Of a DNA stretch of 60,914 nucleotides, positions 1-47,097 are shown in pieces. Within the stretch, counting starts at the first letter, position 1. Each line of letters opens with the position of its first letter. Under the pieces are notes generated by a model, which saw only the letters and a list, made by a program, of their open reading frames with translations, searched no databases and had not been told where the DNA came from. The stretch spans positions 1 through 60,914 of the IMG/VR virus record IMGVR_UViG_3300006339_000003; one strand, written 5' to 3'. The position numbers and the translations under genes were made by a program. Source of the DNA: a virus.

Positions 1-174
1 TAATATAACTGTAGCTGTACTCTTTTCTTCTGAAACTGCAACAGGTGTTGGAGCAACTGCTTGTAAATTACTTGCTTGTATTCCCCACTGATCTTCCATC
101 ATTTTGGCCATATCAGCAGCTTCTTGCATAGTTAATTTACCTATTTCATTTACTAATTTGTTAATGTCTGCCAT
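1..174 (-). CDS. rplL: Ribosomal protein bL12 (L7/L12), 5' part, cut by window edge
   Basis: The minus strand from 174 encodes 58 residues before the window ends, with no stop, so the C-terminal part is missing from view. The start [20 protein letters not shown] matches the dimerising N-terminal domain of bacterial L7/L12. It is followed by an Ala/Pro/Val hinge and the [10 protein letters not shown] segment, which lines up with the EEKTEFDVIL that opens the E. coli L12 globular domain. In cells bL12 forms the ribosomal stalk and recruits translation GTPases. The start overlaps the end of an upstream microprotein gene by 14 bp. Viral ribosomal-protein genes are known, so this is a credible phage gene. 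Whether the GTPase-binding face of the C-terminal domain is kept cannot be seen here. Confidence 0.9.
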
Positions 175-1952: not shown

Positions 1953-2823
1953 GTGTGGTATAATCTATGTACTTCAGGTTAGGTATGCCTTTCCACTCTT
2001 CAATAGGTCCATTGACCTTATCCCTGCCATCATTATATCTATTGACCTTATAAAAATGTATGTCTGGATACCATTGGAACATAGTTCTCCATTGGTTGAT
2101 CCAATTCAACCCTGGTGTTGGACTGTTATCTTTTGCTGTATAATGCTTACTACTCTTGTAGATATTATTAATCTTTTCATTATGACTATGTAAATCGTGT
2201 CCTATTAGGTACACTTCACAAGGATTCTCTTTCTTAACTGCAACCAAACCAGCACTTGCCCCACACGCCCAACCGTGGTCTCTAGGTTCGCATACATCAT
2301 CTAATGAGTGTGAATAATCTGGTTCTTTTATCCAACTAACTTTAATTTGAGCTTGGTCAACTTTCCTTTTAAGTACTGCACCATCTGTCAATACACTTAC
2401 TACACCTTTTAAATTAGAACCGTGTAAAACATATTCTTTACTATCACCACGTCCATTGGTTATAACAGCACCTTGTTCTATTGCTCTATCTAATTCTTCT
2501 TTAGGTAAACCATCTTGTATTATTGCGTCATATGTATGAGCAGGCACTTTAGTCCAATTTCTAAAATAACAAGGTATCTTTTGTGCCATACCTGCGTGAT
2601 ATATTTCGTGTATCATTCCGTGGTCTACACCAGTTAACACATCACATAAATTAGGATAATCTCTATAAATGGCATTGCAACCATATATCTTACCAAATTC
2701 TTTATACTTTAATAAATCTATACCTATTCTACTCTCACCGTTACCGATACAGAATACTCTACTAGACCTTTTTTCTTCTTTAATTTCTTTTGCTAACTCT
2801 TCAACGTCTTCTGATATTATCAT
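1936..2823 (-). CDS. Putative DUF115/MptE-like or sialyltransferase-like protein (295 aa)
   Basis: The N-terminal half carries VFCIGNGESRIGIDL (23-37) and IYGCNAIYRDYPNL (45-58). This layout, a Rossmann-like GNGxS loop followed by a GCNAIY strand, is seen in phage and bacterial DUF115/MptE-like and sialyltransferase-like families. A later GASAGLVAVKK and EVYLIGHDL fit the same fold. These families act on activated nucleotides or sugars; the substrate here is unknown. The start overlaps the end of the neighbouring 2OG-oxygenase gene by 4 bp, so the two are probably translated together. Family assignment is by motif memory and is moderate at best. Confidence 0.5.
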   Translation of the reverse strand: MIISEDVEELAKEIKEEKRSSRVFCIGNGESRIGIDLLKYKEFGKIYGCNAIYRDYPNLCDVLTGVDHGMIHEIYHAGMAQKIPCYFRNWTKVPAHTYDAIIQDGLPKEELDRAIEQGAVITNGRGDSKEYVLHGSNLKGVVSVLTDGAVLKRKVDQAQIKVSWIKEPDYSHSLDDVCEPRDHGWACGASAGLVAVKKENPCEVYLIGHDLHSHNEKINNIYKSSKHYTAKDNSPTPGLNWINQWRTMFQWYPDIHFYKVNRYNDGRDKVNGPIEEWKGIPNLKYIDYTTLDSML

Positions 2824-3413
2824 TTTTCGTACAATCCACAGTATGATTTATTATTTTCTATTTTAAAAAAGAAAGATAATGTTAATCTTTCTTTAAAGGT
2901 ATAATCTAAACAAGGAGAGTGGTATCTACCACCGTGATATAAAACTAGTCTATTTGGAACAGCACTTATATAAATGTCTGGCACTCTCTCCATTTGATTA
3001 TTAAAAAATGCCGTACCACCATCATATGCCTGGTCAAAGTACATCATACCTGCTATTATAGGTTCTTCTTTTTCACCTGCTGGATAGTCCCTATGTACAA
3101 GACCATATTTACCAAAGTTTTGTGGAGATTGTTTTATTTCACTCAATATAATCTTTCTAGCAACTGTCCTGAAATCAATAATTTTAGTTTGTAGTATACC
3201 TTCTATTTTATTTGTGATATAATCGTTCTCTTTATCATATTGATTTTCATAACAAGGATACGCCTGCAATCTATTACCATAATACCCACTTCCTGGTTGA
3301 TGTTGTGCTTCATAGTTCAACCTATCTAAATCTGATTTAATATTATTATACTTTTCTTTTGTGAAGAAATTATAATGAATTGATATTCCACCATTTAAAA
3401 TATAATCAATCAT
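2820..3413 (-). CDS. 2-oxoglutarate/Fe(II) oxygenase-like protein, copy A
   Basis: The protein has a double-stranded beta-helix oxygenase signature: H107-x-D109 in VHRDYP, a distal His (H160 or H165 in YHGGRYH), and Arg176 in ERLTLSFFF as the likely 2-oxoglutarate anchor. The arrangement resembles the DUF6445 group. Such enzymes hydroxylate or demethylate proteins, nucleic acids or small molecules; the substrate is not shown. A close paralogue lies at 9539-10111, with the central and C-terminal parts nearly the same and the N-terminus diverged. It overlaps both neighbours by 4 bp in a run of oxygenase genes between 59 and 32. Confidence 0.75.
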   Translation of the reverse strand: MIDYILNGGISIHYNFFTKEKYNNIKSDLDRLNYEAQHQPGSGYYGNRLQAYPCYENQYDKENDYITNKIEGILQTKIIDFRTVARKIILSEIKQSPQNFGKYGLVHRDYPAGEKEEPIIAGMMYFDQAYDGGTAFFNNQMERVPDIYISAVPNRLVLYHGGRYHSPCLDYTFKERLTLSFFFKIENNKSYCGLYEK

Positions 3414-3952
3414 TTAAATATATTACCTTGCACATTTAAGTAATTAAAGTTTATATTAACTCTTCTTGTATCGTTTGTTGTGCTTGTACTAGTATGGTCA
3501 GTACTTGGATCAAATAGTATTGCTCTATTTGCAACACTATCAATTTTCTTATCTCCTATCCTTGTATATCCATTGCAAGTGTTCAAAGCAAACACACACC
3601 CCACACTAGGAAAAGCATAATCTCGGTGCATACCGTGTTCAATAAGCTTACCTTGATTAGGAAATGAATTTACTTTTACTCTTAATAAAGTTTCCATCTT
3701 AATATTTGGATCTTTAAATTCTTGTAATTTACGTAAAACTGGATCCATTATTTCCCAAGATGTAGTAAATGTTGGTCTGTCATTGTCATATAACATATGC
3801 ATATTAAAGTATTGATAACCAATTTTTCCTCTATCAGATGTTCTTACTATTGTGTCATAATAAAACCAAGGAAAGTATTTACCCATTATCTTTTCTTCTA
3901 ATACATCAAAATCTTCTTTATCTAAAAAATTATCTATTACTATTGTTTTCAT
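3410..3952 (-). CDS. 2-oxoglutarate/Fe(II) oxygenase, tandem copy 1 (180 aa)
   Basis: The catalytic pattern is clear: H109-R-D111 in HGMHRDY, distal H153 in DHTS, and an RR pair (163-164) before VNINFNY for 2-oxoglutarate. It is a tandem duplicate of the gene just upstream (3953-4492). Both start with IVIDNFLDK and share FTTS-E-MDPVL, VKVNS-PNQG, NTCNGYT, SVANRAILFD and NDTRRVNINFNY. Phages carry many such enzymes, and these may modify phage or host macromolecules. The substrate is unknown. The gene abuts its twin with no gap. Confidence 0.8.
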   Translation of the reverse strand: MKTIVIDNFLDKEDFDVLEEKIMGKYFPWFYYDTIVRTSDRGKIGYQYFNMHMLYDNDRPTFTTSWEIMDPVLRKLQEFKDPNIKMETLLRVKVNSFPNQGKLIEHGMHRDYAFPSVGCVFALNTCNGYTRIGDKKIDSVANRAILFDPSTDHTSTSTTNDTRRVNINFNYLNVQGNIFK

Positions 3953-4492
3953 TTAAAAATAGTTAAAGTTTATATTAACTCTTCTTGTATCGTTTGTTGT
4001 ATTTGTACTGCAATGTGGAATGGTTGAATCAAATAATATTGCTCTATTTGCAACACTATCAACTTTAGTACCATCTTCAAACTTTGTATATCCATTGCAA
4101 GTGTTTATACAAAATACACACGCCCTACGGTTTAAATTATCCTTACTCCCTAGCAACGGCCAATCTGTATGCATAGTGTGTTCCCTAAATGTACCTTGAT
4201 TAGGATATGAATTTACTTTTACTCTTACTAAAGAAATCATACGAATATTTGGATCTTCTAATTTCATTAATTTATTCAAGACTGGATCCATTAATTCAAA
4301 AGATGTAGTAAATAGTGGTCTGTCATTGTCATACATCATATGCGTTACATAAAATGTCATATCTTTTTTATGTTCTTCTTCTAGTATTATTTCATCAAAA
4401 TGAAACCAAGGAAAATATCTACCCATTATCTTTATATGTAATTCATCAAAATCTTTTTTATCTAAAAAATTATCTATGACTATTGGTTGCAT
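3953..4492 (-). CDS. 2-oxoglutarate/Fe(II) oxygenase, tandem copy 2 (179 aa)
   Basis: This is the partner of the adjacent duplicate. It has a His-Thr-Asp metal triad start (MHTDW), a distal His in IPHCSTN, and the RRVNINFNY 2-oxoglutarate-binding end. A longer reading begins 13 codons earlier, but the ATG at 4492 (MQPIVIDNFLDK) has a GGAG Shine-Dalgarno at good spacing and aligns with the start of the twin, so it is preferred. The two copies differ mainly near residues 30-50 and just after the metal-binding HxD, where this copy has an insertion. Confidence 0.8.
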   Translation of the reverse strand: MQPIVIDNFLDKKDFDELHIKIMGRYFPWFHFDEIILEEEHKKDMTFYVTHMMYDNDRPLFTTSFELMDPVLNKLMKLEDPNIRMISLVRVKVNSYPNQGTFREHTMHTDWPLLGSKDNLNRRACVFCINTCNGYTKFEDGTKVDSVANRAILFDSTIPHCSTNTTNDTRRVNINFNYF

Positions 4493-4549
4493 ATAATCTC
4501 CATTGCCTCTAGTATCTCTTGTACAGTCCACGTACCATTTATTTTCTTA

Positions 4550-5174: not shown

Positions 5175-5789
5175 CTAATCTATCAAATACTTATAACAAA
5201 TTGGGAAATGGTCTTTCATATGTCTTGATAACTGGTGAGTGACCATTCTTGTTTCTGCTTGAGCATTACTCTTACTCCTTAAATTACAAACTCTACTAAA
5301 TGCAAATACACTACCTGACCATATCCACTCGGTCATCATACATTGAGGTAACACCATTCTTGCCATTTCAGGTGCTATACCTTCTTCTAACATATAGTTA
5401 TAAGTTCCTTTGCAAGTATCTATTAATTCTGTAATATCAAATTCAATTTCTTCATCACTTGAACCTTGTTTAATACTCTTCTCTGGTTTCTTTCTCCACA
5501 TAAAAGGTATATAAAACTCTGGTTTATCTGAAACATATCGTCTACTCACTTCGTTCCAACTTAAACCTACTTGATGTTTAACTAATTGTCTTGCAACAAA
5601 GATAGGTGCTTTAATTCTAAATGATAGAAAGGCGTGAGCAAATGGTGACCAATGTCCGTGCAATGCCAAATACTTAATTAACTTGTCATCTTTTTCATCA
5701 AGTACATCTTTTCTTTTTGCAAATGATACTCTAGCAGCATTTACTACTGATAGGTCAGTACCTAATTTATCTATAAGTTCTATGTCCAT
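5175..5789 (-). CDS. thyX: Flavin-dependent thymidylate synthase ThyX
   Basis: The 204-aa protein has the ThyX fold signature: a leading segment with HGHWSPFAHAFLSFRIKAP, then FVARQLVKHQ and SWNEVSRRY (77-85). C-terminal conserved residues include SRVCNLRSKSNAQAETR and QLSRH. ThyX makes dTMP from dUMP using methylene-tetrahydrofolate, FAD and NADPH. The classic RHRxxSxNExSxRY box is altered: the RHR part reads KHQ with one extra residue, a variant I believe occurs in other phage and bacterial ThyX. The start overlaps the stop of the upstream CxC protein (TAATG). It supplies thymidine for AT-rich phage DNA, together with NrdAB. Confidence 0.93.
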   Translation of the reverse strand: MDIELIDKLGTDLSVVNAARVSFAKRKDVLDEKDDKLIKYLALHGHWSPFAHAFLSFRIKAPIFVARQLVKHQVGLSWNEVSRRYVSDKPEFYIPFMWRKKPEKSIKQGSSDEEIEFDITELIDTCKGTYNYMLEEGIAPEMARMVLPQCMMTEWIWSGSVFAFSRVCNLRSKSNAQAETRMVTHQLSRHMKDHFPICYKYLID

Positions 5790-5956
5790 TATTCTCCATA
5801 TCCATCTATTGCTCTTGCGTGAAAAGGATTCTCTTTCTTTTCCTCTTCTTTCAATTCATCATATTTCTTTTTCTTTTTTTTATATTCTTCTTCTGTTAAA
5901 CTATGCCAACCTATACAAAGTTGTGTTGGTGACCTTCCACATTGACATACTGACAT
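5789..5956 (-). CDS. CxC/CDGSH-like small iron-sulfur candidate (55 aa)
   Basis: A 55-aa frame starts at an ATG at 5956 and is coupled by 1-base overlaps to the genes on both sides. The N-terminus is CQCGRSPTQLCIGWH (4-18), which resembles the CDGSH 2Fe-2S pattern CxCxx(S/T)...C.G.H, but it is one residue shorter and lacks the usual Pro and Asp. The rest is a Lys/Glu-rich helix. It could bind an iron-sulfur cluster or zinc. The coding call is strong because of the exact fit between thyX and the upstream membrane protein; the metal-binding role is inference. Confidence 0.7.
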   Translation of the reverse strand: MSVCQCGRSPTQLCIGWHSLTEEEYKKKKKKYDELKEEEKKENPFHARAIDGYGE

Positions 5957-6144
5957 TAAAATAACTTCCCTATTTTATATACTCCCCATAATGCCATAAA
6001 AACAAATAATGCACTTAACACCCCACCTTCAAACAAAGCAACTAATGTAACTGTTGCCCACAATGCATAGAACACTAAAGATTTCCAGTTCATAAAGAAC
6101 CAAACTAATCCTAATCCAATTACTTTTAAATATTCTTTTATCAT
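5956..6144 (-). CDS. Small membrane protein, unknown (62 aa)
   Basis: The product has two hydrophobic segments (about residues 8-35 and 38-57) and short charged ends, so it is probably a two-pass inner-membrane protein. It is coupled to the gp33-like gene upstream and the CxC gene downstream by overlapping stop and start codons. No family is recognised. Confidence 0.65.
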   Translation of the reverse strand: MIKEYLKVIGLGLVWFFMNWKSLVFYALWATVTLVALFEGGVLSALFVFMALWGVYKIGKLF

Positions 6145-6359
6145 TATGGTAATACTCCAGGTTTACCACCCTTTAACAGGTTTAGTTGTGCTGATTGATG
6201 TTGTATTTTTTCTTTGAGTTGTTTTGTAATTAGACGTGCTGTAGTTTCAACTTCAATAGTATTTTCTTCACAATATTTAACAATAGCATCCACATATGAC
6301 ATATCTTTATGCCTTTTTACTATGTCCTCTATGATTAAAGAAAATTCTTTTGAGTTCAT
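6144..6359 (-). CDS. 33: gp33-like late transcription co-activator
   Basis: This 71-aa protein has the compact helical layout I associate with gp33 of T4-like marine phages: FSLIIEDIVK, SYVDAIVKYCEENTIE, ETTARLI-KQLKEKIQ, and a short LNLL tail. In T4, gp33 bridges the sliding clamp and host RNA polymerase to fire late promoters. Its place upstream of 59 and 32 matches the T4 order 33-59-32, and T4-type late promoters are present in the window. Identity rests on motif memory and synteny, so it is likely but not certain. Confidence 0.72.
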   Translation of the reverse strand: MNSKEFSLIIEDIVKRHKDMSYVDAIVKYCEENTIEVETTARLITKQLKEKIQHQSAQLNLLKGGKPGVLP

Positions 6360-6387
6360 TTTATTACTATAACATATTTATTAGCAA

Positions 6388-6645
6388 ATGTAAAGTGTGT
6401 AGTTTCTGTTGCCACGTACTACACAACGCCGTTTGCCTATTAACTAGGCAGCAAGAGCATAACTTTCGTTAGCTTTTATATGTTTGTCCTTTAAAGTAGC
6501 AACCTACTATCTAACTCCAGTTAGTTTTGATTGTGAATCGATCCTGTATCATCCCCCATAAGCACACTTGAAATCAATGTGTTTATGGTGGAGATGGTGA
6601 GAATTGCACTCACGTCTTCTCCAACTATTATCTAACCTTCAACGT
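6388..6645 (-). ncRNA. ssrA: Circularly permuted (two-piece) tmRNA, ssrA
   Basis: Transcribed leftward. The acceptor piece comes first. Its T-arm is a GTGAG/CTCAC stem with loop TGCAATT (6598-6614). The 3' acceptor strand CATCTCC (6596-6590) follows, then discriminator A and encoded CCA (6588-6586). A linker hairpin (CCATAA/TTATGG) covers 6557-6585 and would be processed out. The coding piece starts GGGGATG (6556-6550), which pairs with CATCTCC over 7 bp and places a G-U at the third pair, the alanine identity mark. The tag reads ANESYALAA then TAG (6473-6444). After it come a GCCTA/TAGGC hairpin and an H-type pseudoknot (GTTG..CAAC crossing GTGTAG..CTACAC) ending near 6395. GTTAG (acceptor piece) can pair with CTAAC (coding piece). 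The outer ends are approximate. Confidence 0.93.
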
Positions 6646-6652
6646 CAAATTC

Positions 6653-6680
6653 ATTATAAACTTATTCCTTTGCCTTTAAA
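6653..6680 (-). promoter_or_regulatory. Possible promoter for the tmRNA gene
   Basis: The minus strand has TATAAT (6653-6658) with TTTAAA 16 bases upstream. Transcription from it would begin a few bases before the tmRNA acceptor piece. It overlaps the 3' end of the gene at 6654. The -35 match is weak, so read-through from upstream genes is also possible. Confidence 0.45.
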
Positions 6681-7037
6681 CTTTAAATCAAATGACTTGT
6701 ATAACATACAAGACTCTAGTCCATTCATTGTTGACATAACTACAAGTGATATTGTATATGTAGGGTCAACATAATAACTTACTATAAAAACTGGTTCACC
6801 ATCTGGTCTAGCTCTATCTCTACCAACAGAAACATTAACCAAAGTCATTTCGTTCTTTTCTATATATGCAAGTACACTTTCACTTGTTCCACATATAACA
6901 GGCATTTGTAACCAATATAATTGTCCTTGTTCACTTGGAAATTCAGGCAATGGTGATGTTTCCTGCTCCGCCATAGCAAGTGTGCTCATAGTTATGAGTA
7001 CTGCTCCAAATATTATTGATTTTAACCTTTTTAACAT
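6654..7037 (-). CDS. Exported protein with signal peptide, unknown (127 aa)
   Basis: The N-terminus (MLKRLK, a hydrophobic core, then LAMA before EQE) is a classic Sec signal peptide with likely cleavage near residue 23. The mature part has two Cys (in VICGTSES and LESCML) that could form a disulphide, and beta-rich segments. It is probably periplasmic. It stands alone between the nuclease gene and the tmRNA. No family is recognised. Confidence 0.65.
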   Translation of the reverse strand: MLKRLKSIIFGAVLITMSTLAMAEQETSPLPEFPSEQGQLYWLQMPVICGTSESVLAYIEKNEMTLVNVSVGRDRARPDGEPVFIVSYYVDPTYTISLVVMSTMNGLESCMLYKSFDLKFKGKGISL

Positions 7038-7072
7038 AAGTGACCTCTCGTGGATAATCTCTAGCCACTTTG

Positions 7073-7771
7073 TTAATGATTTTGCTTGATTTTATCTTTG
7101 TTTAGTTCTTCATAGTATTTATAAAAATACTGTATAGATTCTTGTAGTTTTGGCTCAAATATTTTTTTATCTTTGACAAAAGAACGCATTGTGCCGTCTT
7201 CACCTGCCATTAAGATAACTAATTGGTCTATGCGTTTGCCAAATAGCTCTTCATACATAATTGCATAGGCAGTTGTTTGGACAAAATAGTTTTCTATCCA
7301 ATCTTCTTTACGTTCCTTGTTCGCTGTCTTGAAATCTATTACTGATAACTTGCCATTGTACTCAGCAACACAATCAACTTGACCTGCAATGGTCAATTTA
7401 TGACTGTACATAATCTCTTCTAGTAAATGTATGTTATTAATTTGTGCTAAATAAGGCAACATCAATCTAAACATACCTAAAGGTAGTACATCCCTAATAC
7501 TAGGTGTTTCACCTTTGATATACTGTTCAACAAGTGTATGAGTTGCTTTGCCTCTACGTGCCGCTCTACCCATTTCCCAATTGGCTGCTTCTTCACCAAC
7601 TGCTTTTCTCCACTTCTCTAATCCTGCTTTTTTCTGAACACCTAAAACTGTAGTGATAGATGGATAGTTCTTGCCATCTACATCATAGAAACGGAAACCG
7701 TTTATACGTCTACCTTTTGTTTTTGGAAGTTTTGTCTTATCAATATTAATCCAAGTAAATTTATCTGCCAT
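7073..7771 (-). CDS. PD-(D/E)XK exonuclease, RecB/Cas4-like
   Basis: The 232-aa protein has the nuclease core of the RecB-like PD-(D/E)XK superfamily. GKATHTLVEQ (74-83) is the first helix, Glu119 a possible helper acid, GQVD (D133) and IDFKT (D146, K148) the catalytic pair, and Q165-xxx-Y169 (QTTAY) the RecB-type motif IV. Such phage nucleases process DNA ends in recombination or degrade host DNA. No helicase domain is fused. The start is coupled to the upstream 50-aa gene (TAATG). Confidence 0.8.
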   Translation of the reverse strand: MADKFTWINIDKTKLPKTKGRRINGFRFYDVDGKNYPSITTVLGVQKKAGLEKWRKAVGEEAANWEMGRAARRGKATHTLVEQYIKGETPSIRDVLPLGMFRLMLPYLAQINNIHLLEEIMYSHKLTIAGQVDCVAEYNGKLSVIDFKTANKERKEDWIENYFVQTTAYAIMYEELFGKRIDQLVILMAGEDGTMRSFVKDKKIFEPKLQESIQYFYKYYEELNKDKIKQNH

Positions 7772-7923
7772 TATTTGTTCCTCAATTTCTTTCTTAATAC
7801 ACTAATTCGGTGTTTGATACCATCTATTGTTGTGTACATCCATCCACAATCGTGTGGTTCAATTTGAGTTCTGAACCACTTGATTGTATCTTTTAATACT
7901 TCAATCTGTTTTTTTATACTCAT
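7771..7923 (-). CDS. Small helical protein, unknown (50 aa)
   Basis: ATG at 7923, stop at 7771 overlapping the nuclease start. The product is basic and helical (KKQIEVLKDTIKWFRTQIE, then IKHRISVLRKKLRNK) with a central CGW. A near-perfect sigma70-type promoter ends 6 bases before the ATG, so the mRNA may be leaderless. It is the first gene of the unit that continues into the nuclease. Confidence 0.65.
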   Translation of the reverse strand: MSIKKQIEVLKDTIKWFRTQIEPHDCGWMYTTIDGIKHRISVLRKKLRNK

Positions 7924-9371: not shown

Positions 9372-9549
9372 ATTTCTTTTTTAGTCTGTTATAGTCTGAC
9401 TCACTACTTATTCCAAATTCATCATCTGCTGCCCCAAAATTATAATACTTCTTTACCATAGGAGCAATCGTACCTTTTTGACGACCTCCTTTATTTCTAT
9501 GTATCCTTCTAGGAGTTCTATTAGTAGACATATTTTTTTTAGATGTCAT
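9355..9549 (-). CDS. Small basic protein, unknown (64 aa)
   Basis: The N-terminal half is Arg/Lys-rich (TNRTPRRIHRNKGGRQKGT) and the C-terminal half mixed and helical. It starts within the last codons of the 2OG-oxygenase gene (ATG at 9549, or ATG at 9531 after the stop). No family is recognised. Confidence 0.55.
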   Translation of the reverse strand: MTSKKNMSTNRTPRRIHRNKGGRQKGTIAPMVKKYYNFGAADDEFGISSESDYNRLKKKYEVKN

Positions 9550-10111
9550 TTTCTCTCCATATTCTAAAAAAGAAAGATAATGTTAATCTTTCTTTAAAGG
9601 TATAATCTAAACAAGGTGCGTGGTATATACCACCGTGATATAAAACTAGTCTATTTGGAACAGCACTTATATAAATGTCTGGCACTTTCTCCATTTGATT
9701 ATTAAAAAATGCCGTGCCTCCATCATATGCCTGGTCAAAATACATCATACCTGCTATTAAAGGTTCTCTATCACCTATAGGATAATCCCTATGTATAAAA
9801 CCATATTTACCAAAGTTTTGTGGTGATTCTTTTACTTCACTCAATATAATTTTTCTAGCAACTGTCTTGAAATCAGTAATTTTAGTTTGTAATATAGTTT
9901 CTATACCAGTTGTGATATAATCGTTCTCTTTATCATATACACCTTCATAACAAGGAAACGCCTGCTTCCTATTACCATATTTATTCTTATATGGTTGATG
10001 TACTGGATGATATTTCAACCTATCTAAATCTCTTTTAATACTATTAAATTTATCTGGTTCAAAAAATGGTATATGTTGTGATATCCCACCTCTTAAAATA
10101 TAGTTTAACAT
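9539..10111 (-). CDS. 2-oxoglutarate/Fe(II) oxygenase-like protein, copy B
   Basis: This 190-aa protein is a close paralogue of the gene at 2820-3413. Long stretches are identical or nearly so, including GIHRDYP-type HxD, GGTAFFNNQME, VPDIYISAVPNRLVLYHGG and DYTFKERLTLSFFF. All catalytic positions (HxD, distal His, Arg) are kept, so both copies should be active. Divergence is concentrated in the first 60 residues and at the end, where substrate choice may lie. The copies are 6 kb apart, pointing to a duplication inside the phage lineage. Confidence 0.75.
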   Translation of the reverse strand: MLNYILRGGISQHIPFFEPDKFNSIKRDLDRLKYHPVHQPYKNKYGNRKQAFPCYEGVYDKENDYITTGIETILQTKITDFKTVARKIILSEVKESPQNFGKYGFIHRDYPIGDREPLIAGMMYFDQAYDGGTAFFNNQMEKVPDIYISAVPNRLVLYHGGIYHAPCLDYTFKERLTLSFFFRIWRENDI

Positions 10112-26152: not shown

Positions 26153-26922
26153 CTGTTTCTTCTCCATTCTGGACTATTTGCTTGTTTTTTTCTTTGTCCT
26201 TTTCTATGGTCTATATATGGGTTAAGAAACGTATCTCTTGCCATTATATGTCCATTTCTACCATCCCCTAGTGGTTTTTCACTATACCTGGGATCGTCTT
26301 TAAACATTTGCCTAGTACCGTCCAATGTATGGCAATCTGTCCAAAAATTCTTTCCTAATTTCTTTATTGTATATACTTTATCTGTTATATACCATTTTTT
26401 ATATTCACGAAAAAAGTCATCTACTACACGACTTCTATTATTAAATGCAACAAAACCTGTTTCTGTATATTGTGATGGTCTATGATAAAATGATAAAAAT
26501 GTTAAATCTGGTAAACAGTTCTGATACCAAGAGTCGTGTATTGTGTCCATAAACTTACAATCACTATCTACATAATATATTTTAGTTCCCCAACCTCTTG
26601 CTGCTGATTGAGCAAATACTTTATAACTAAATCTTACCGCTTCTTCATAAAAATTATTTGCTGTTCTATGTTTATTTCTTTGAACAAAATCTTTACAATC
26701 TGGTTCAAAGTCAAATAAATTATAATAATGTACTCTATCTACTTTAGGATATAAATTTGGATTATCTTCAACAAAAACATACATATGTGGTTTTTGATTT
26801 GTTGCCACGTATGAGTCAATTAATTGATGAGCATAATCATCATATAATCTTTTATTAAATGTTGTACAAAATATGTATGGGGCTAATCCCCTAGTTGGTC
26901 CGTATGCTCCGAGTCCGCTCAT
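26149..26922 (-). CDS. Putative glycosyltransferase with DSD motif (257 aa)
   Basis: The N-terminal part LAPYIFCTTFNKRLYDDYAH and KIYYVDSDCKFMD (DxD at about 119-121) suggest a GT-A fold transferase. The ATG at 26922 overlaps the gmd stop (ATGA), so it is preferred to a longer reading. It probably uses the product of the GDP-sugar genes just upstream, though this is inference from position. Confidence 0.6.
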   Translation of the reverse strand: MSGLGAYGPTRGLAPYIFCTTFNKRLYDDYAHQLIDSYVATNQKPHMYVFVEDNPNLYPKVDRVHYYNLFDFEPDCKDFVQRNKHRTANNFYEEAVRFSYKVFAQSAARGWGTKIYYVDSDCKFMDTIHDSWYQNCLPDLTFLSFYHRPSQYTETGFVAFNNRSRVVDDFFREYKKWYITDKVYTIKKLGKNFWTDCHTLDGTRQMFKDDPRYSEKPLGDGRNGHIMARDTFLNPYIDHRKGQRKKQANSPEWRRNR

Positions 26923-27968
26923 ATACAATTCTCTGGAGCATCCCAAAGTCTTGGTACTCCTGATTGATGGTCACTACAATATCTACCTACATCAGCGTCA
27001 ACCATTTCTTTCATTAAACTCTCTACATTATGTTTATGTTCCCAACCTAATACTTCTCTTGCCTTACTAGCATCCCCTTGTAATACATCTACCTCAGCAG
27101 GTCTTAAATGTTTCTTATCAGTAGTAATAATTAATTGATTGCCGTCTGTAAAACACTTACCATCTTTCCAATAATGTTTTATTCCTTTATAATCTAATGC
27201 CATATCTGCAAATTCTTTTACTGTATGAATTTCACCAGTTGCTAATACATAGTCATCTGGTTTATCGTGTTGTAGCATTTGCCACATACCTCTAACAAAA
27301 TCCTCAGCGTGTCCCCAATCTCTTTTTGCATTTAAATTTCCTAAAACAATTGGTCTTCCTTCTTGCAACCAATGTGCTAAACCTTTTGATATCTTTCTAG
27401 TTACAAAGTCCTCACCTCTATGTGGACTTTCGTGATTAAATAAAAGACCACAACAAGCAAACATATCATACGCTTCTCTATAATTAATTGTTATATGATG
27501 AGCATATAGTTTTGCAACACCATATGGTGACCTCGGCCAGAATTTTGTTGTTTCTTTTTGTGGCGTTTCAAATACTTTTCCATACATTTCACTTGTACTT
27601 GCTTGATAGAATTTTATTTTAGGATTTACTTGTCTTATACTTTCTAGTATTCTCAAAGGACCCATTGCGTCTATTAGAGTAGCAAGTTCTGGTTGTTTAA
27701 ATGATAACCATACAAATGATTGAGCAGCTAAATTATATACTTCGTCTGGTTGAGATTCCTCTATTGCTCTTCTTATATTCGCTTGGTCTATTACATCAAG
27801 TTCAACAAACTCTATTTGGTCTGTAATACCCATTTCATCTAGTCGCCAATGTTTTGGTGATGTACTTCGTCTTTGTCCACCAAATACTTTATAACCTTTT
27901 TCTAATAACAATTTAGCAAGATAAGCGCCGTCTTGTCCAGTTATACCTGTAATCAATGCTCTTTTCAT
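26919..27968 (-). CDS. gmd: GDP-mannose 4,6-dehydratase
   Basis: The 349-aa short-chain dehydrogenase has the NADP-binding loop GITGQDGAYL (8-17), the catalytic STSEMYG and SPYGVAK (Ser/Thr, Tyr, Lys), and the GMD-specific C-terminal RPAEVDVLQGDASKA and LGW. It makes GDP-4-keto-6-deoxy-mannose, the branch point for GDP-fucose, rhamnose, perosamine and colitose. The next gene in the unit is a ColD-like dehydratase, which points to a 3,6-dideoxyhexose. Confidence 0.92.
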   Translation of the reverse strand: MKRALITGITGQDGAYLAKLLLEKGYKVFGGQRRSTSPKHWRLDEMGITDQIEFVELDVIDQANIRRAIEESQPDEVYNLAAQSFVWLSFKQPELATLIDAMGPLRILESIRQVNPKIKFYQASTSEMYGKVFETPQKETTKFWPRSPYGVAKLYAHHITINYREAYDMFACCGLLFNHESPHRGEDFVTRKISKGLAHWLQEGRPIVLGNLNAKRDWGHAEDFVRGMWQMLQHDKPDDYVLATGEIHTVKEFADMALDYKGIKHYWKDGKCFTDGNQLIITTDKKHLRPAEVDVLQGDASKAREVLGWEHKHNVESLMKEMVDADVGRYCSDHQSGVPRLWDAPENCI

Positions 27969-29119
27969 TTTATGTCCTTTGTTATGTGATATACCATATC
28001 AATATTTTCTTTTAAATCTCTTATATCATTTCCTATAAACAAACCATTGTTATGAATATAATCTGCATTTGGACAACTATTATTATAATAATCAAGATAA
28101 TCTATTACAGGATTGTTCATAAAATTACCTGCAACAATAGGTCTACACTCTACTCCGTTTTCTGTAAGTTTCTTAACAAGTTGGTCTCTTTTGCCTTCAT
28201 ATTCATCAACTAACAAAATGGAAAATCCAAACCAACTAGACTCTCCTATTTCTTTTTGTAATTGTACACCTGGCATTTCTTCAAACTTATGTTGAAAATA
28301 GTTTGCATTACGAATTCTTTGTGTTCTCATTTCTTGTTCTTTTTTAAGTTGTACACTTCCAATTGCACCACTCATTTCTAAAGGTCTTACACTATAACCT
28401 GGAGTTACAAACGTAAAACTATCTTTAAACTTATCACCTGTCTTTTTATAAATCTTATTATCGTCTGGTAAATCTCTACACCAACCGTGTGCTCTTAATG
28501 ACCTTAAATAATCAGCGTCATCTTTATCTCTACAAGCAATCATTCCACCTTCCATTGTTTGTAAATGGTGTGAAAAGAAAAATGAAAAACTACCTAACTG
28601 ACCAAACGTACCACAAAACTCATAATTATATGTCTTTGCACCTAAACTTTCACAATTGTCCTCTAATAATATTAGGTCGTGTTCTCTAGCAATATGATAT
28701 AATGAATAATGGTCACAGGAGTTACCTAAAAGATTAACTGCAAATATAGCGCAAGTGTCATCATTAATTGCTTCTCTAACTTTATTAGGGTCTATATTTA
28801 AAGTTTCTCTATCTACATCTACAAAATTTAATTTGAAACCGTATTGTTGTAATGGAAAGAAAGTTGTTGACCAAGAAACGGCAGGCACAATTATATTACC
28901 ACCTCTTTTATATTTTAATTTTAATAATGCAATCATTAATAGATTGGCAGTTGAACCACTATTAACCATAACTGCGTCTGCACATCTAAAATATTTGGCA
29001 AACTCTTGCTCAAACTTCTTGACGTGTGGACCCATTGTATATCGCCCACTTTTTATGACTTCCTGTATTGCGTATAATTCTTTATGATCCCAAGTATCAC
29101 AAGCTAATGGATATTTCAT
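27965..29119 (-). CDS. ColD/E1-like sugar 3-dehydratase (DegT family, Lys replaced by His)
   Basis: The 384-aa DegT/DnrJ family protein has VNSGSTAN (52-59), VPAVSWSTT and LLEDNCESLGA for PLP. In aminotransferases of this family a Lys forms the Schiff base in SF-x-x-x-K. Here the site reads SFFFSHHLQTMEGG, with His184 in the Lys position. That replacement marks GDP-4-keto-6-deoxy-mannose 3-dehydratase (ColD) and CDP-sugar E1. So it should remove the 3-OH from the GMD product, giving GDP-4-keto-3,6-dideoxymannose. A ColC-like epimerase/reductase is not seen, so the host or a gene outside the window may finish the pathway. Confidence 0.8.
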   Translation of the reverse strand: MKYPLACDTWDHKELYAIQEVIKSGRYTMGPHVKKFEQEFAKYFRCADAVMVNSGSTANLLMIALLKLKYKRGGNIIVPAVSWSTTFFPLQQYGFKLNFVDVDRETLNIDPNKVREAINDDTCAIFAVNLLGNSCDHYSLYHIAREHDLILLEDNCESLGAKTYNYEFCGTFGQLGSFSFFFSHHLQTMEGGMIACRDKDDADYLRSLRAHGWCRDLPDDNKIYKKTGDKFKDSFTFVTPGYSVRPLEMSGAIGSVQLKKEQEMRTQRIRNANYFQHKFEEMPGVQLQKEIGESSWFGFSILLVDEYEGKRDQLVKKLTENGVECRPIVAGNFMNNPVIDYLDYYNNSCPNADYIHNNGLFIGNDIRDLKENIDMVYHITKDIK

Positions 29120-29127
29120 AATTTTCC

Positions 29128-30954
29128 TTATATATTCATCTTAAAAACCTTGTACCAAATCGCAAATGCCATTATAGTAAACAGTTCTTTTTGTGAGCGT
29201 TGACCAATATTAGGTAATATTTTCTTTTCTCCAGCTTTATTTAAACCTTTTGACCAACTTTCTCTTTTATTACACATATATTTATCATCTATTTCGGACT
29301 GGTTATATTCAAATATTTCTTGCATTTCTTTATTTGATAATACATTCCTAATATAATCTTTTAATACATTTCTATCATCAGCTCGTTTGCTAAGTCTACC
29401 TACAATAAATTCATCTGTAGGAAATCTCCAACCAGTTTTCTCTCTCTCTAATATTTTTAATGGTAATCTTTTATAATATGCTGTCTTTAATAGTGGTTTA
29501 TTATAATATGCCCAATTATCTTCCATAAAATTCTTGTTGATTTTATGTTCACTAGGGATACTTCGTATATAATCTCTAAAAGTTTTATTCATAAAAGGAA
29601 ATCTTCCTTCTAAACTAAATCTCATACCTAACTTATCATTTCTCATTAAAAAATCTTCTGATAATGTATTTAAACACTCAATGAACATAAAATCATTTCT
29701 TTCATCACCTTGCAAACCACCTTTTGGAAACCAACTATCAAGATACTCTAATTGTTCTTCGTGTGTTGCCCATAGTTCTTTATTTTTTAATTCTCTATGA
29801 TTAGCACATAATGCTTTTAACTTCGTTGCCCAATCTGGTTGTCTATGATGTTTATAACCACATAACAATTCATCTCCACCATCACCACTTAAAGTTACCG
29901 TTATACCTTGTTTCTTTATATATTCATTAACTCCAAAATATACAGGTAAACTTTTACTTTGTCTAGGTTCTTCTAATGCTAACGCTGTATTTTCCCAATT
30001 ATCTGTAAAATATTGTTGATTAATATATAGTTCTCTATGTTCACCACCATATGTTGCTGACATTTCTTTTGCCAATATACAATCTTCGTTAGACCTTGAT
30101 TTCCAATCATAAGTTTCAAATTTTGAACTAAATGTTTTTGGTTTTGTTTGCCACAATTTTGACATTTCATAACAAATAGCCGTACTATCAATACCACCAC
30201 TTAAAAACAATCCAATTTCTCTACGACCCATTAAGGTTTCTTTTACTGCCTGGTGTAATCTATTTCTAACTTCTTCTTTAATTTTACCTACATTTTTAAC
30301 ATTTCTTAACCCTATTTGTCTATTATTAATATTAGTAGAAATTTTAGCACTAGTTACTACGTTCATCTTAACAACTTCACCTGGTACTAATTTTTTAATA
30401 CCTTTAAACAATGTCAAATAACCAGAATTATATCCTTGTTTATAATACTGTTTGAATGCCTCTTTATCTACTTTTCTTTCAAATCCTAATGTTAATAAAC
30501 TTTTAATCTCGGATGAAAAAGCAAACTTACCATTTATATAACCATAATAAAGAGGTTTAGTTCCATTACTATCTCTGGCAATAATTAATTCTTTTGTTAT
30601 CTTATTATAACAAGCAAACGCAAACATTCCATCTAATTTTTCAATAAATGATATACCATATTTTTCTAAACCTAACATTAAAACTTCTGTATCTGTATTA
30701 GTTTTAAGTTTAAATTCTTTACCTAGTTCTTTGTAATTGTATATCTCTCCATTATATACTAATACCCTATCGTTATGAATCCAAGGTTGTTTTGAATTTT
30801 CTGTAGTGTCTATGATTGATAATAAATTATGACCTAAAGTAATATCTTCATCTTGCCAATGTCCATTACCATCAGGTCCTCTATGATGTGCTTCGCACAA
30901 CATTTCTTTTATCAAACTAGTTGATGACCATAATATTCCGTGTATCGCACACAT
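29128..30954 (-). CDS. asnB: Asparagine synthetase, glutamine-hydrolysing (AsnB family)
   Basis: The 608-aa protein has Cys2 as the glutaminase nucleophile (MCAIHGI), RGPDG, VYNGEIYNY, and a C-terminal synthetase domain with the PP-loop SGGIDST and LSGDGGDELLCGY. AsnB-family enzymes in glycan islands often amidate uronic acids or amino sugars rather than make free asparagine. Position in the sugar unit supports that, but the substrate is not visible. Confidence 0.85.
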   Translation of the reverse strand: MCAIHGILWSSTSLIKEMLCEAHHRGPDGNGHWQDEDITLGHNLLSIIDTTENSKQPWIHNDRVLVYNGEIYNYKELGKEFKLKTNTDTEVLMLGLEKYGISFIEKLDGMFAFACYNKITKELIIARDSNGTKPLYYGYINGKFAFSSEIKSLLTLGFERKVDKEAFKQYYKQGYNSGYLTLFKGIKKLVPGEVVKMNVVTSAKISTNINNRQIGLRNVKNVGKIKEEVRNRLHQAVKETLMGRREIGLFLSGGIDSTAICYEMSKLWQTKPKTFSSKFETYDWKSRSNEDCILAKEMSATYGGEHRELYINQQYFTDNWENTALALEEPRQSKSLPVYFGVNEYIKKQGITVTLSGDGGDELLCGYKHHRQPDWATKLKALCANHRELKNKELWATHEEQLEYLDSWFPKGGLQGDERNDFMFIECLNTLSEDFLMRNDKLGMRFSLEGRFPFMNKTFRDYIRSIPSEHKINKNFMEDNWAYYNKPLLKTAYYKRLPLKILEREKTGWRFPTDEFIVGRLSKRADDRNVLKDYIRNVLSNKEMQEIFEYNQSEIDDKYMCNKRESWSKGLNKAGEKKILPNIGQRSQKELFTIMAFAIWYKVFKMNI

Positions 30955-45441: not shown

Positions 45442-47097
45442 ATGATTAAAATATTGACGAAAACGTGGGCAGTATATTTGACGTTGATTATATTACTTGG
45501 AATATATATATCAAATCCTATCTTGCTACAGTCAGCAAAACTAAACACCTTTGATTTCTACCAAACCTTTGGTAAGAATTATGAATCCAAGAGTTTAGTA
45601 CTAGTAGACATATCAGACAAAGCATTAGAAAAGAATGGGCAATGGCCGTGGAAGAGAGATTTACTTGGTCGTGTCATAATCAATGCATATAAAAATGGTG
45701 CCGCTCTTGTAGTTCTGCAAGTAGTCTTCCCACATAAAGATAGATTAGGTGGTGATGAAATGTTTTTGAAAATGATTTCAAAATATCCAATCATACTTAC
45801 TGAAACCGATACTGTAAAAAATCTTATTAGTATCTCACGTAAAGCAATAGCAATAGGTAATGTATCTGCACCAGTTGATATAGATGGCACTATAAGAAAA
45901 CTACCTCTTGATAAATCCATACCTGAAGTTATCTTAAAAGTTATTAATGCAAAAACTTTAGCAGAAGATACTATTTGGATTGATTTCAGACATAATATTC
46001 CTAGAATAGATTACACCGATAAAGATTGGTCATCTGTAAAAGGTAAAATAGTTTTCATAGGTACAACATTCCAAGGTTCAACATTTGTTACTACTCCTAA
46101 TGGATTAAAAAACACACACGAAATTATGGCAATCAGTACAGAAACTTTATTGTCAGGTAATTTTATTAGTAGACCTTATTGGTTACCATATAGTGAATTT
46201 GCTTTTATACTATTAGGTGCTCTATTCTTTCTCATAGTTATACCTAGATGTGGTGTAATGTGGTCTGCGATATGGTTTGGTGGATACTTATTTGATTTAA
46301 CACTTGCAAGTTCTTATCTATGGACACAACACTTAATCATAACTGATTGGTTCAGTCCACTTGTAATAGGGTCTGTAGTATGGGGTCAGTTAACATACAA
46401 TAACTATTCAAAAGAAAATAAATTAAGACTACAAATTAAGAAACAATTTGAACACTATCTATCTCCAGATATGGTTAAGAAACTACAAAAGAATCCATCT
46501 CTATTAAAACTTGGTGGTGAAAGAAAAGTAATGACGTTTTTGTTTTCAGACATACGTGGCTTTACTCCTATATCGGAATCTATGAAAGGTAATCCAGAAA
46601 AACTTACCAAGTATGTTAATAAGTTCTTGACTGTAATGACTGATATAATATTAAAAAATGGTGGTACTATTGATAAGTATATGGGTGATTGTATAATGGC
46701 ATTTTGGAACGCACCCCTAGACAATCCAAATCATCAAAGACTAGCAGTACTATCTGCATCCCAAATGAAAAAAACAGTTGAAGAAATGAATAAGAGTGGA
46801 GAGTTTGACCCACCTTTAAAGATTGGTATAGGTATCAATACTGGTGAGTGTCTTGTAGGTAATATGGGGTCTGAACAACGTTTTGATTATTCTGTTATTG
46901 GTGACGCTGTTAATTTGGCAAGTAGATTGGAAGGTAAGAGTAAAGATTTTGATACTACAATAGTAATATCTCAACATACTGCTGAAGGTATTGACTTTGT
47001 TCCATTGGCAAGACCAGATGGATTTAAATTCTATAAACTAGGTATCTCTACTGTAAAAGGTAAAAAAGAAAAGGTTAATTGTTTTTCTATTAAATAA
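45442..47097 (+). CDS. CHASE2-domain adenylate cyclase (551 aa)
   Basis: The only recognised plus-strand gene. The order is an N-terminal membrane helix (about 11-29), a CHASE2 sensor domain in the periplasm (about 35-245, with LVLVDISDKALEKNGQWPWKR), three membrane helices (about 252-318), then a class III cyclase domain (360-545). Metal Asp370 (FSDIRGF) and Asp416 (DKYMGDC), purine-selecting Lys412, and transition-state Asn491 and Arg495 (AVNLASRLE) are all present; Ser484 sits where Thr or Asp is usual. So it should be active and make cAMP. In bacteria, CHASE2 cyclases are often beside FecR-domain genes; here a FecR gene lies in the divergent curli-like unit. No catalytic residue is lost. 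Confidence 0.9.
   Translation: MIKILTKTWAVYLTLIILLGIYISNPILLQSAKLNTFDFYQTFGKNYESKSLVLVDISDKALEKNGQWPWKRDLLGRVIINAYKNGAALVVLQVVFPHKDRLGGDEMFLKMISKYPIILTETDTVKNLISISRKAIAIGNVSAPVDIDGTIRKLPLDKSIPEVILKVINAKTLAEDTIWIDFRHNIPRIDYTDKDWSSVKGKIVFIGTTFQGSTFVTTPNGLKNTHEIMAISTETLLSGNFISRPYWLPYSEFAFILLGALFFLIVIPRCGVMWSAIWFGGYLFDLTLASSYLWTQHLIITDWFSPLVIGSVVWGQLTYNNYSKENKLRLQIKKQFEHYLSPDMVKKLQKNPSLLKLGGERKVMTFLFSDIRGFTPISESMKGNPEKLTKYVNKFLTVMTDIILKNGGTIDKYMGDCIMAFWNAPLDNPNHQRLAVLSASQMKKTVEEMNKSGEFDPPLKIGIGINTGECLVGNMGSEQRFDYSVIGDAVNLASRLEGKSKDFDTTIVISQHTAEGIDFVPLARPDGFKFYKLGISTVKGKKEKVNCFSIK

Follow-up and report, generated by a model that had tools for sequence, protein, structure and literature searches.

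The locus studied here raises the question of whether a phage carries a functional tmRNA gene (ssrA), where such a gene came from and what it would do during infection. Permuted tmRNAs are already known from phages, SAR11 phages among them: two-piece tmRNAs were described in 2022 in the phages Melnitz and Mosig, in a study reporting 53 phage two-piece tmRNA structures, 50 of them marine or aquatic (PMC9004378), and the tmRNA database includes phage tmRNAs (PMC11915505). The DNA analyzed, called the window from here on, is an IMG/VR virus record of 60,914 bases, possibly a fragment. Its genes include T4-like ones for replication as well as those for a coactivator resembling gp33, ThyX, the curli pore CsgG and a bL12 that is truncated. 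The best match among phage records was Pelagibacter phage Mosig EXVC030M, to which the genes for ssb and the DNA end protector aligned at a DNA identity of 77%. CsgG-type curli genes are a known trait of SAR11 myophages (PMC9004378), and an L12 gene occurs in some PMP-A pelagimyophage genomes (PMC7029224). The source virus was likely a T4-like pelagimyophage, with SAR11 as its likely host. The features used in the analysis, all on the minus strand, were the following:

1..174 (-): N-terminal portion of ribosomal protein bL12, truncated at the window edge (PF16320, 7.2e-9, above the cut-off)
5175..5789 (-): ThyX-type thymidylate synthase (phrog_85, 1.1e-68)
6144..6359 (-): 71-aa late-transcription coactivator resembling gp33, immediately downstream of the tmRNA (PF16805, 3.8e-23; phrog_254)
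6366..6394 (-): promoter-like TTTACA-17-TATAGT between tmRNA and gp33 (consensus match only; present in close relatives)
6394..6649 (-): circularly permuted two-piece tmRNA (ssrA), 3' end approximate (RF04321, RF01849, ARAGORN tmRNA*, covariation)
6396..6430 (-): 3' H-type pseudoknot, both stems covarying
6444..6473 (-): tag frame ANESYALAA, resume codon GCU, stop UAG (ARAGORN)
6550..6556 (-): acceptor 5' strand GGGGATG, 7/7 pairs, 7-bp stem with G3-U70
6557..6585 (-): intervening linker, expected to be excised on two-piece processing (hairpin in single-sequence fold)
6586..6596 (-): acceptor 3' strand CATCTCC, A73 and encoded CCA (sequence)
6597..6613 (-): T-arm GTGAG-TGCAATT-CTCAC (sequence)
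6653..6680 (-): promoter-like TTTAAA-16-TATAAT just upstream of the tmRNA (consensus match only)
6654..7037 (-): 127-aa protein directly upstream of the tmRNA, position conserved
7073..7771 (-): PD-(D/E)XK exonuclease (PF12705, phrog_298)

The original prediction had placed a phage-encoded, permuted two-piece tmRNA at this site, and this was confirmed on the minus strand by Rfam, ARAGORN and reading of the sequence. The Rfam covariance check gave strong matches: RF04321 scored 101 bits over 6649-6444 (E 1.5e-18, gathering threshold 47), and RF01849 scored 91.9 bits over 6691-6394 (E 1.1e-23, gathering threshold 50). The Rfam permuted-tmRNA model was matched over its full length (1-213). ARAGORN reported a permuted tmRNA with the tag ANESYALAA; both ARAGORN and the covariance models derive from cellular tmRNAs, and their scores are uninformative on activity. 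The gene order read from the sequence was T-arm, acceptor and CCA first, followed by the linker, the 5' acceptor strand and the tag. The tag frame reads GCT AAC GAA AGT TAT GCT CTT GCT GCC TAG (6473-6444) and closes with a hydrophobic -AA degron and a stop. Where the mature coding piece ends on its 3' side (about 6394) was estimated from the model. In the pseudoknot, stem 1 pairs CGT (6428-6426) with ACG (6417-6415), and stem 2 pairs TGTGTAGT (6425-6418) with ACTACACA (6403-6396). Thus, the T-arm, encoded CCA, 7-bp acceptor stem with G3-U70, tag with stop and H-type pseudoknot were all found as claimed, as was the bL12 gene at the window edge. The prediction had also read tmRNA plus bL12 as a phage programme directed at translation, which is speculative. 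The predicted linker hairpin also formed in the single-sequence fold, and it varied among relatives, between which the linker sequence differs. Four divergent copies (L228, L259, L297 and L302) had longer linker hairpins with a common loop, a GAG(A/T)TTAACACAGACAATC-like motif.

Several controls were applied to the gene and its structure. The permuted-tmRNA pattern occurred once in the window and in 0 of 100 shuffles, and the fold of the tmRNA strand had a z-score of -3.48, with 0 of 200 shuffles equally stable. Across 24 distinct phage copies, 96.0% of the cells were paired over 36 base pairs, drawn from helix P2 (two parts), the T-arm, the acceptor and both pseudoknot stems, against 79.5% with shuffled partners and 39–48% with slid partners. 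The alignment was not structure-fitted, but part of the structure had come from this alignment, so that the slid control is somewhat flattering. Double-sided changes were found at 21 of these 36 pairs. The pseudoknot stems also showed double changes, with 90% (stem 1) and 96% (stem 2) of their cells paired, and G3-U70 was present in all 24 aligned copies. In the larger set of 53 distinct phage copies, the T-arm was paired 5/5 in every copy, with 12 stem variants, and the pseudoknot stem was kept in 51; the acceptor 5' strand was not located by the stem-counting script in two copies (L285 and L287). The intact acceptor variants were GGGGATG/CATCTCC, GGGGGTG/CACCTCC, GGGGCTG/CAGCTCC and GGGGGCG/CGCCTCC, all of them with G3-U70; position 5:68, an A-U pair in the window, was G-C or C-G in relatives. 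The permuted tmRNA gene is real, intact and not a product of chance, and purifying selection on the phage ssrA is the best explanation of its upkeep.

Related loci were collected with gp33 as bait, counting only those with at least 330 nt upstream. The tmRNA was present at 76 of 76 gp33-linked loci (62 by ARAGORN and 14 by Rfam), and the order exonuclease, 127-aa ORF, tmRNA, gp33 was constant and was also that of Mosig; the 127-aa protein itself gave no match in Pfam and PHROG searches. BLASTN of the window tmRNA against phage records gave no match either because the DNA is too diverged, whereas neighbour genes and RNA models succeeded. Stem and tag, whose breakage in close relatives would have spoken against the prediction, were both intact. 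These counts bear on whether the gene might be a non-functional passenger picked up from a host, for instance through inaccurate excision from an integration site in ssrA. Although tmRNA genes are, according to work cited in PMC9004378, frequent integration sites of which prophages can carry fragments, the gene was complete in all 76 linked relatives, with compensatory changes throughout, and no integrase was found in three records, including that of a 177 kb relative. The passenger origin is therefore already strongly disfavoured, and we regard it as extremely improbable. Ribosome rescue would instead be a stable component of a widespread SAR11 phage lineage and not the accident of one isolate.

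When the exonuclease was used as a second bait, more distant relatives were reached (L355-L381), in which this protein was 72–76% identical to that of the window and gp33 was 49–59% identical. ARAGORN detected no tmRNA at the locus in this group, nor did Rfam in the seven loci scanned, and in most of these loci about 110–130 nt separated gp33 from the 127-aa gene. The presence of the tmRNA in one lineage and its lack at the same site in another make a gain or loss there clear. The tmRNA-less relatives (e.g., L358:3800-3905) had a strong promoter-like TTGACA-TATATT and a hairpin leader, GGTGGY..GCTAGCGT..RCCACC, with a variable stem; this leader upstream of gp33 had no Rfam match in the seven tmRNA-less loci scanned.

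This arrangement, together with the position of the tmRNA directly upstream of gp33, could mean that the RNA serves mainly as a leader regulating gp33, its tmRNA activity being secondary, since the short hairpin leader occupies the same place in the relatives without tmRNA. Moreover, the ssrA of Methylophilales phage Melnitz EXVC044M, a phage with a gammaproteobacterial (OM43) host that was compared by description only, is reported to contain a glutamine riboswitch in its 3' part (PMC9004378). A glutamine riboswitch was also reported for Mosig and is described as common, not defining, at Mosig/Melnitz-type ssrA loci (PMC9004378); in contrast, none was found near the window tmRNA, as an Rfam search of 5900-7900 gave no riboswitch match at E values up to 10. 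The promoter-like site between the tmRNA and gp33 also argues against a leader role, as gp33 need not be transcribed through the tmRNA. Promoter-like matches in the region around 6653..6680, on the upstream side, were no more numerous than in shuffles. Finally, a pure leader would not conserve the tag and G3-U70, and a main role of the RNA in regulating gp33 is accordingly very unlikely.

The tag was then compared with those of cellular tmRNAs. The SAR11 set was taken from an alphaproteobacterial sample as small low-GC genomes with the tmRNA beside a divergent thyX, so that its clade assignment is inferred; P. ubique has been reported to have this gene arrangement (PMC2704228). A permuted tmRNA was found in 92 of the 117 genomes of the SAR11 family sampled. 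Sixty-eight SAR11 tags were read and 67 were counted, all 9 aa long: ANDKFALAA (21), ANESYALAA (20), ANNKFALAA (11), ANESYAIAA (8), ANEQFALAA (4), ANQKFALAA (2) and ADESYALAA (1). The tag of the window is therefore identical to that of 20 of 67 SAR11 tmRNAs, and it was found in 0 of 107 other alphaproteobacterial tmRNAs, only one of which had a 9-aa tag (ANNKYALAA). The predicted alphaproteobacterial host was thus borne out and narrowed to SAR11. The same comparison contradicted the notion that the phage had a tag of its own, since ANESYALAA is frequent among SAR11 hosts, and it speaks against altered proteolysis or escape from host control through the tag, as a host tag with its ALAA end was retained. 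By known rules, an ALAA-ended tag should act as a normal ClpXP-type degron.

A second phage tag, ANEQFALAA, was also a SAR11 tag, while ANESLALAA, DNASYALAA, GEGNFALAA, GESNFALAA and the GEDNFALAA of Mosig were absent from the SAR11 sample. Every gp33-linked phage tag read ended in -AA. In nearly every case the last four residues were ALAA, the others being AMAA (L298 and L300) and PMAA (L294). Some IMG/VR contigs, possibly non-viral, had permuted tmRNAs with very long tags of 20–31 aa (L030, L036, L054, L062, L048, L040, L044, L039 and L066), one pair of them ending in ASA, and the tags of L011 and L075, also possibly non-viral, ended in AQAA. The Mosig ssrA (MT647606) resembled that of the window in being permuted and two-piece and in its locus, exonuclease, hypothetical protein, tmRNA, gp33 and ThyX, but differed from it in the tag. 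No description of the tag match to SAR11 was found in the open-access PMC literature searched. New findings are that the tag is identical to SAR11 host tags, that every member of a large gp33-linked set retains the gene, and that the phage copies covary.

To place the phage RNA among its relatives, a tmRNA tree was built without the tag (233 columns, with several long branches). Phage tmRNAs formed one clade (96/93) and those of SAR11 another (84/100), and a single clade of phage plus SAR11 was not rejected (p-AU 0.41). An earlier tree with IMG/VR hits picked by the AGGATCGA pattern was discarded because this pattern biased the sample. Without the tag, the window RNA was at best 71% (median 68%) identical to SAR11 tmRNAs, which it resembles in being permuted and in its 9-aa tag, and at best 68% (median 61.5%) identical to those of other alphaproteobacteria. 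A recent capture from a sampled SAR11 strain was rejected, the phage clade not being nested in SAR11. The nearness of tmRNA and thyX in both SAR11 and phage might have been a trace of joint transfer, but the orientation speaks against it, since thyX lies beside the SAR11 tmRNA in divergent orientation, on the other strand (also PMC2704228), and the two genes share a strand in the phage. The simplest reading of these sequence comparisons is a single ancient acquisition by the phage lineage from an alphaproteobacterium, which may have been a SAR11 ancestor.

Two phage tags equal SAR11 tags even though the tag-free tree puts the phage clade outside SAR11, which suggests that phage tags might follow those of SAR11 hosts, by convergence or by exchange of the tag segment, with the RNA body evolving separately. 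In the codons, ANESYALAA agreed between phage and SAR11 up to the fifth codon, and ANEQFALAA differed at synonymous sites. We put this idea forward tentatively and consider it somewhat doubtful; if true, selection would act on the match to the host degron, and the tag might be of use in predicting the host.

The most probable role of the gene, in our judgement, is that the phage augments ribosome rescue by the host with a functional ssrA that keeps the host degron and works through host SmpB and AlaRS. As predicted, no SmpB gene was present in the window record, and none was found in any of seven phage records (the window, the 177 kb relative, Mosig and four others), while SmpB was present in 10 of 10 SAR11 genomes tested. 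Host tRNA-processing enzymes would cut the precursor, by analogy with known permuted tmRNAs, removing the linker and leaving an acceptor piece and a coding piece base-paired together. Host AlaRS would then charge the phage tmRNA through G3-U70, and host SmpB and EF-Tu would deliver it to stalled ribosomes, where ANESYALAA would be appended, the ribosome released and the product passed to host ClpXP-type proteolysis. Host RNA and DNA breakdown in T4-like infection should increase non-stop complexes. The phage would thereby increase rescue capacity while infection yields broken mRNAs, with the host degron unchanged. We infer transcription, processing, charging, the use of host SmpB and the benefit to the phage from the gene and its context. 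Two findings count against this explanation: SAR11 hosts already encode their own tmRNA, and a related phage lineage lacks the gene at the same locus. Stable retention of the gene and the host-like tag make two ideas testable, namely exhaustion of the host's tmRNA by infection and tag identity as a predictor of host range.

A different use of the same RNA would be selective recycling or interference, in which the phage tmRNA mainly tags host proteins for destruction or acts as a decoy of the host tmRNA. To our knowledge, tmRNA has no means of selecting host mRNAs, which counts against selective recycling. An intact tag and stop, with a tag equal to that of the host, also imply that the products should be treated as they are with host tmRNA. 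Tagging of host proteins for destruction was nevertheless proposed by the authors of the Melnitz study (PMC9004378), and a precedent for a decoy exists in the RNA of Mycobacterium phage DS6A, another phage-encoded tmRNA relative, which is described in work cited in PMC11915505 as having no tag frame and inhibiting host tmRNA. Unlike DS6A, the window copy has a full tag frame, and we consider recycling or interference unlikely as the main role.

Additionally, other genes of the window were recorded. Three adjacent ORFs at 2820-4531 (-) all belonged to PHROG family 274 (annotated as endonuclease V), a possible tandem duplication, with a weaker fourth match at 9539-10111. Consecutive genes for a GDP-mannose 4,6-dehydratase, a DegT-type aminotransferase and an asparagine synthase at 26919-30954 (-) resembled a cell-surface sugar gene set. 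The longest plus-strand ORF of the window (45442-47097) encodes a 551-aa protein with a CHASE2 sensor (PF05226, 1.3e-26) and an adenylate/guanylate cyclase domain (PF00211, 5.4e-22), a nucleotide cyclase being unusual in a phage.
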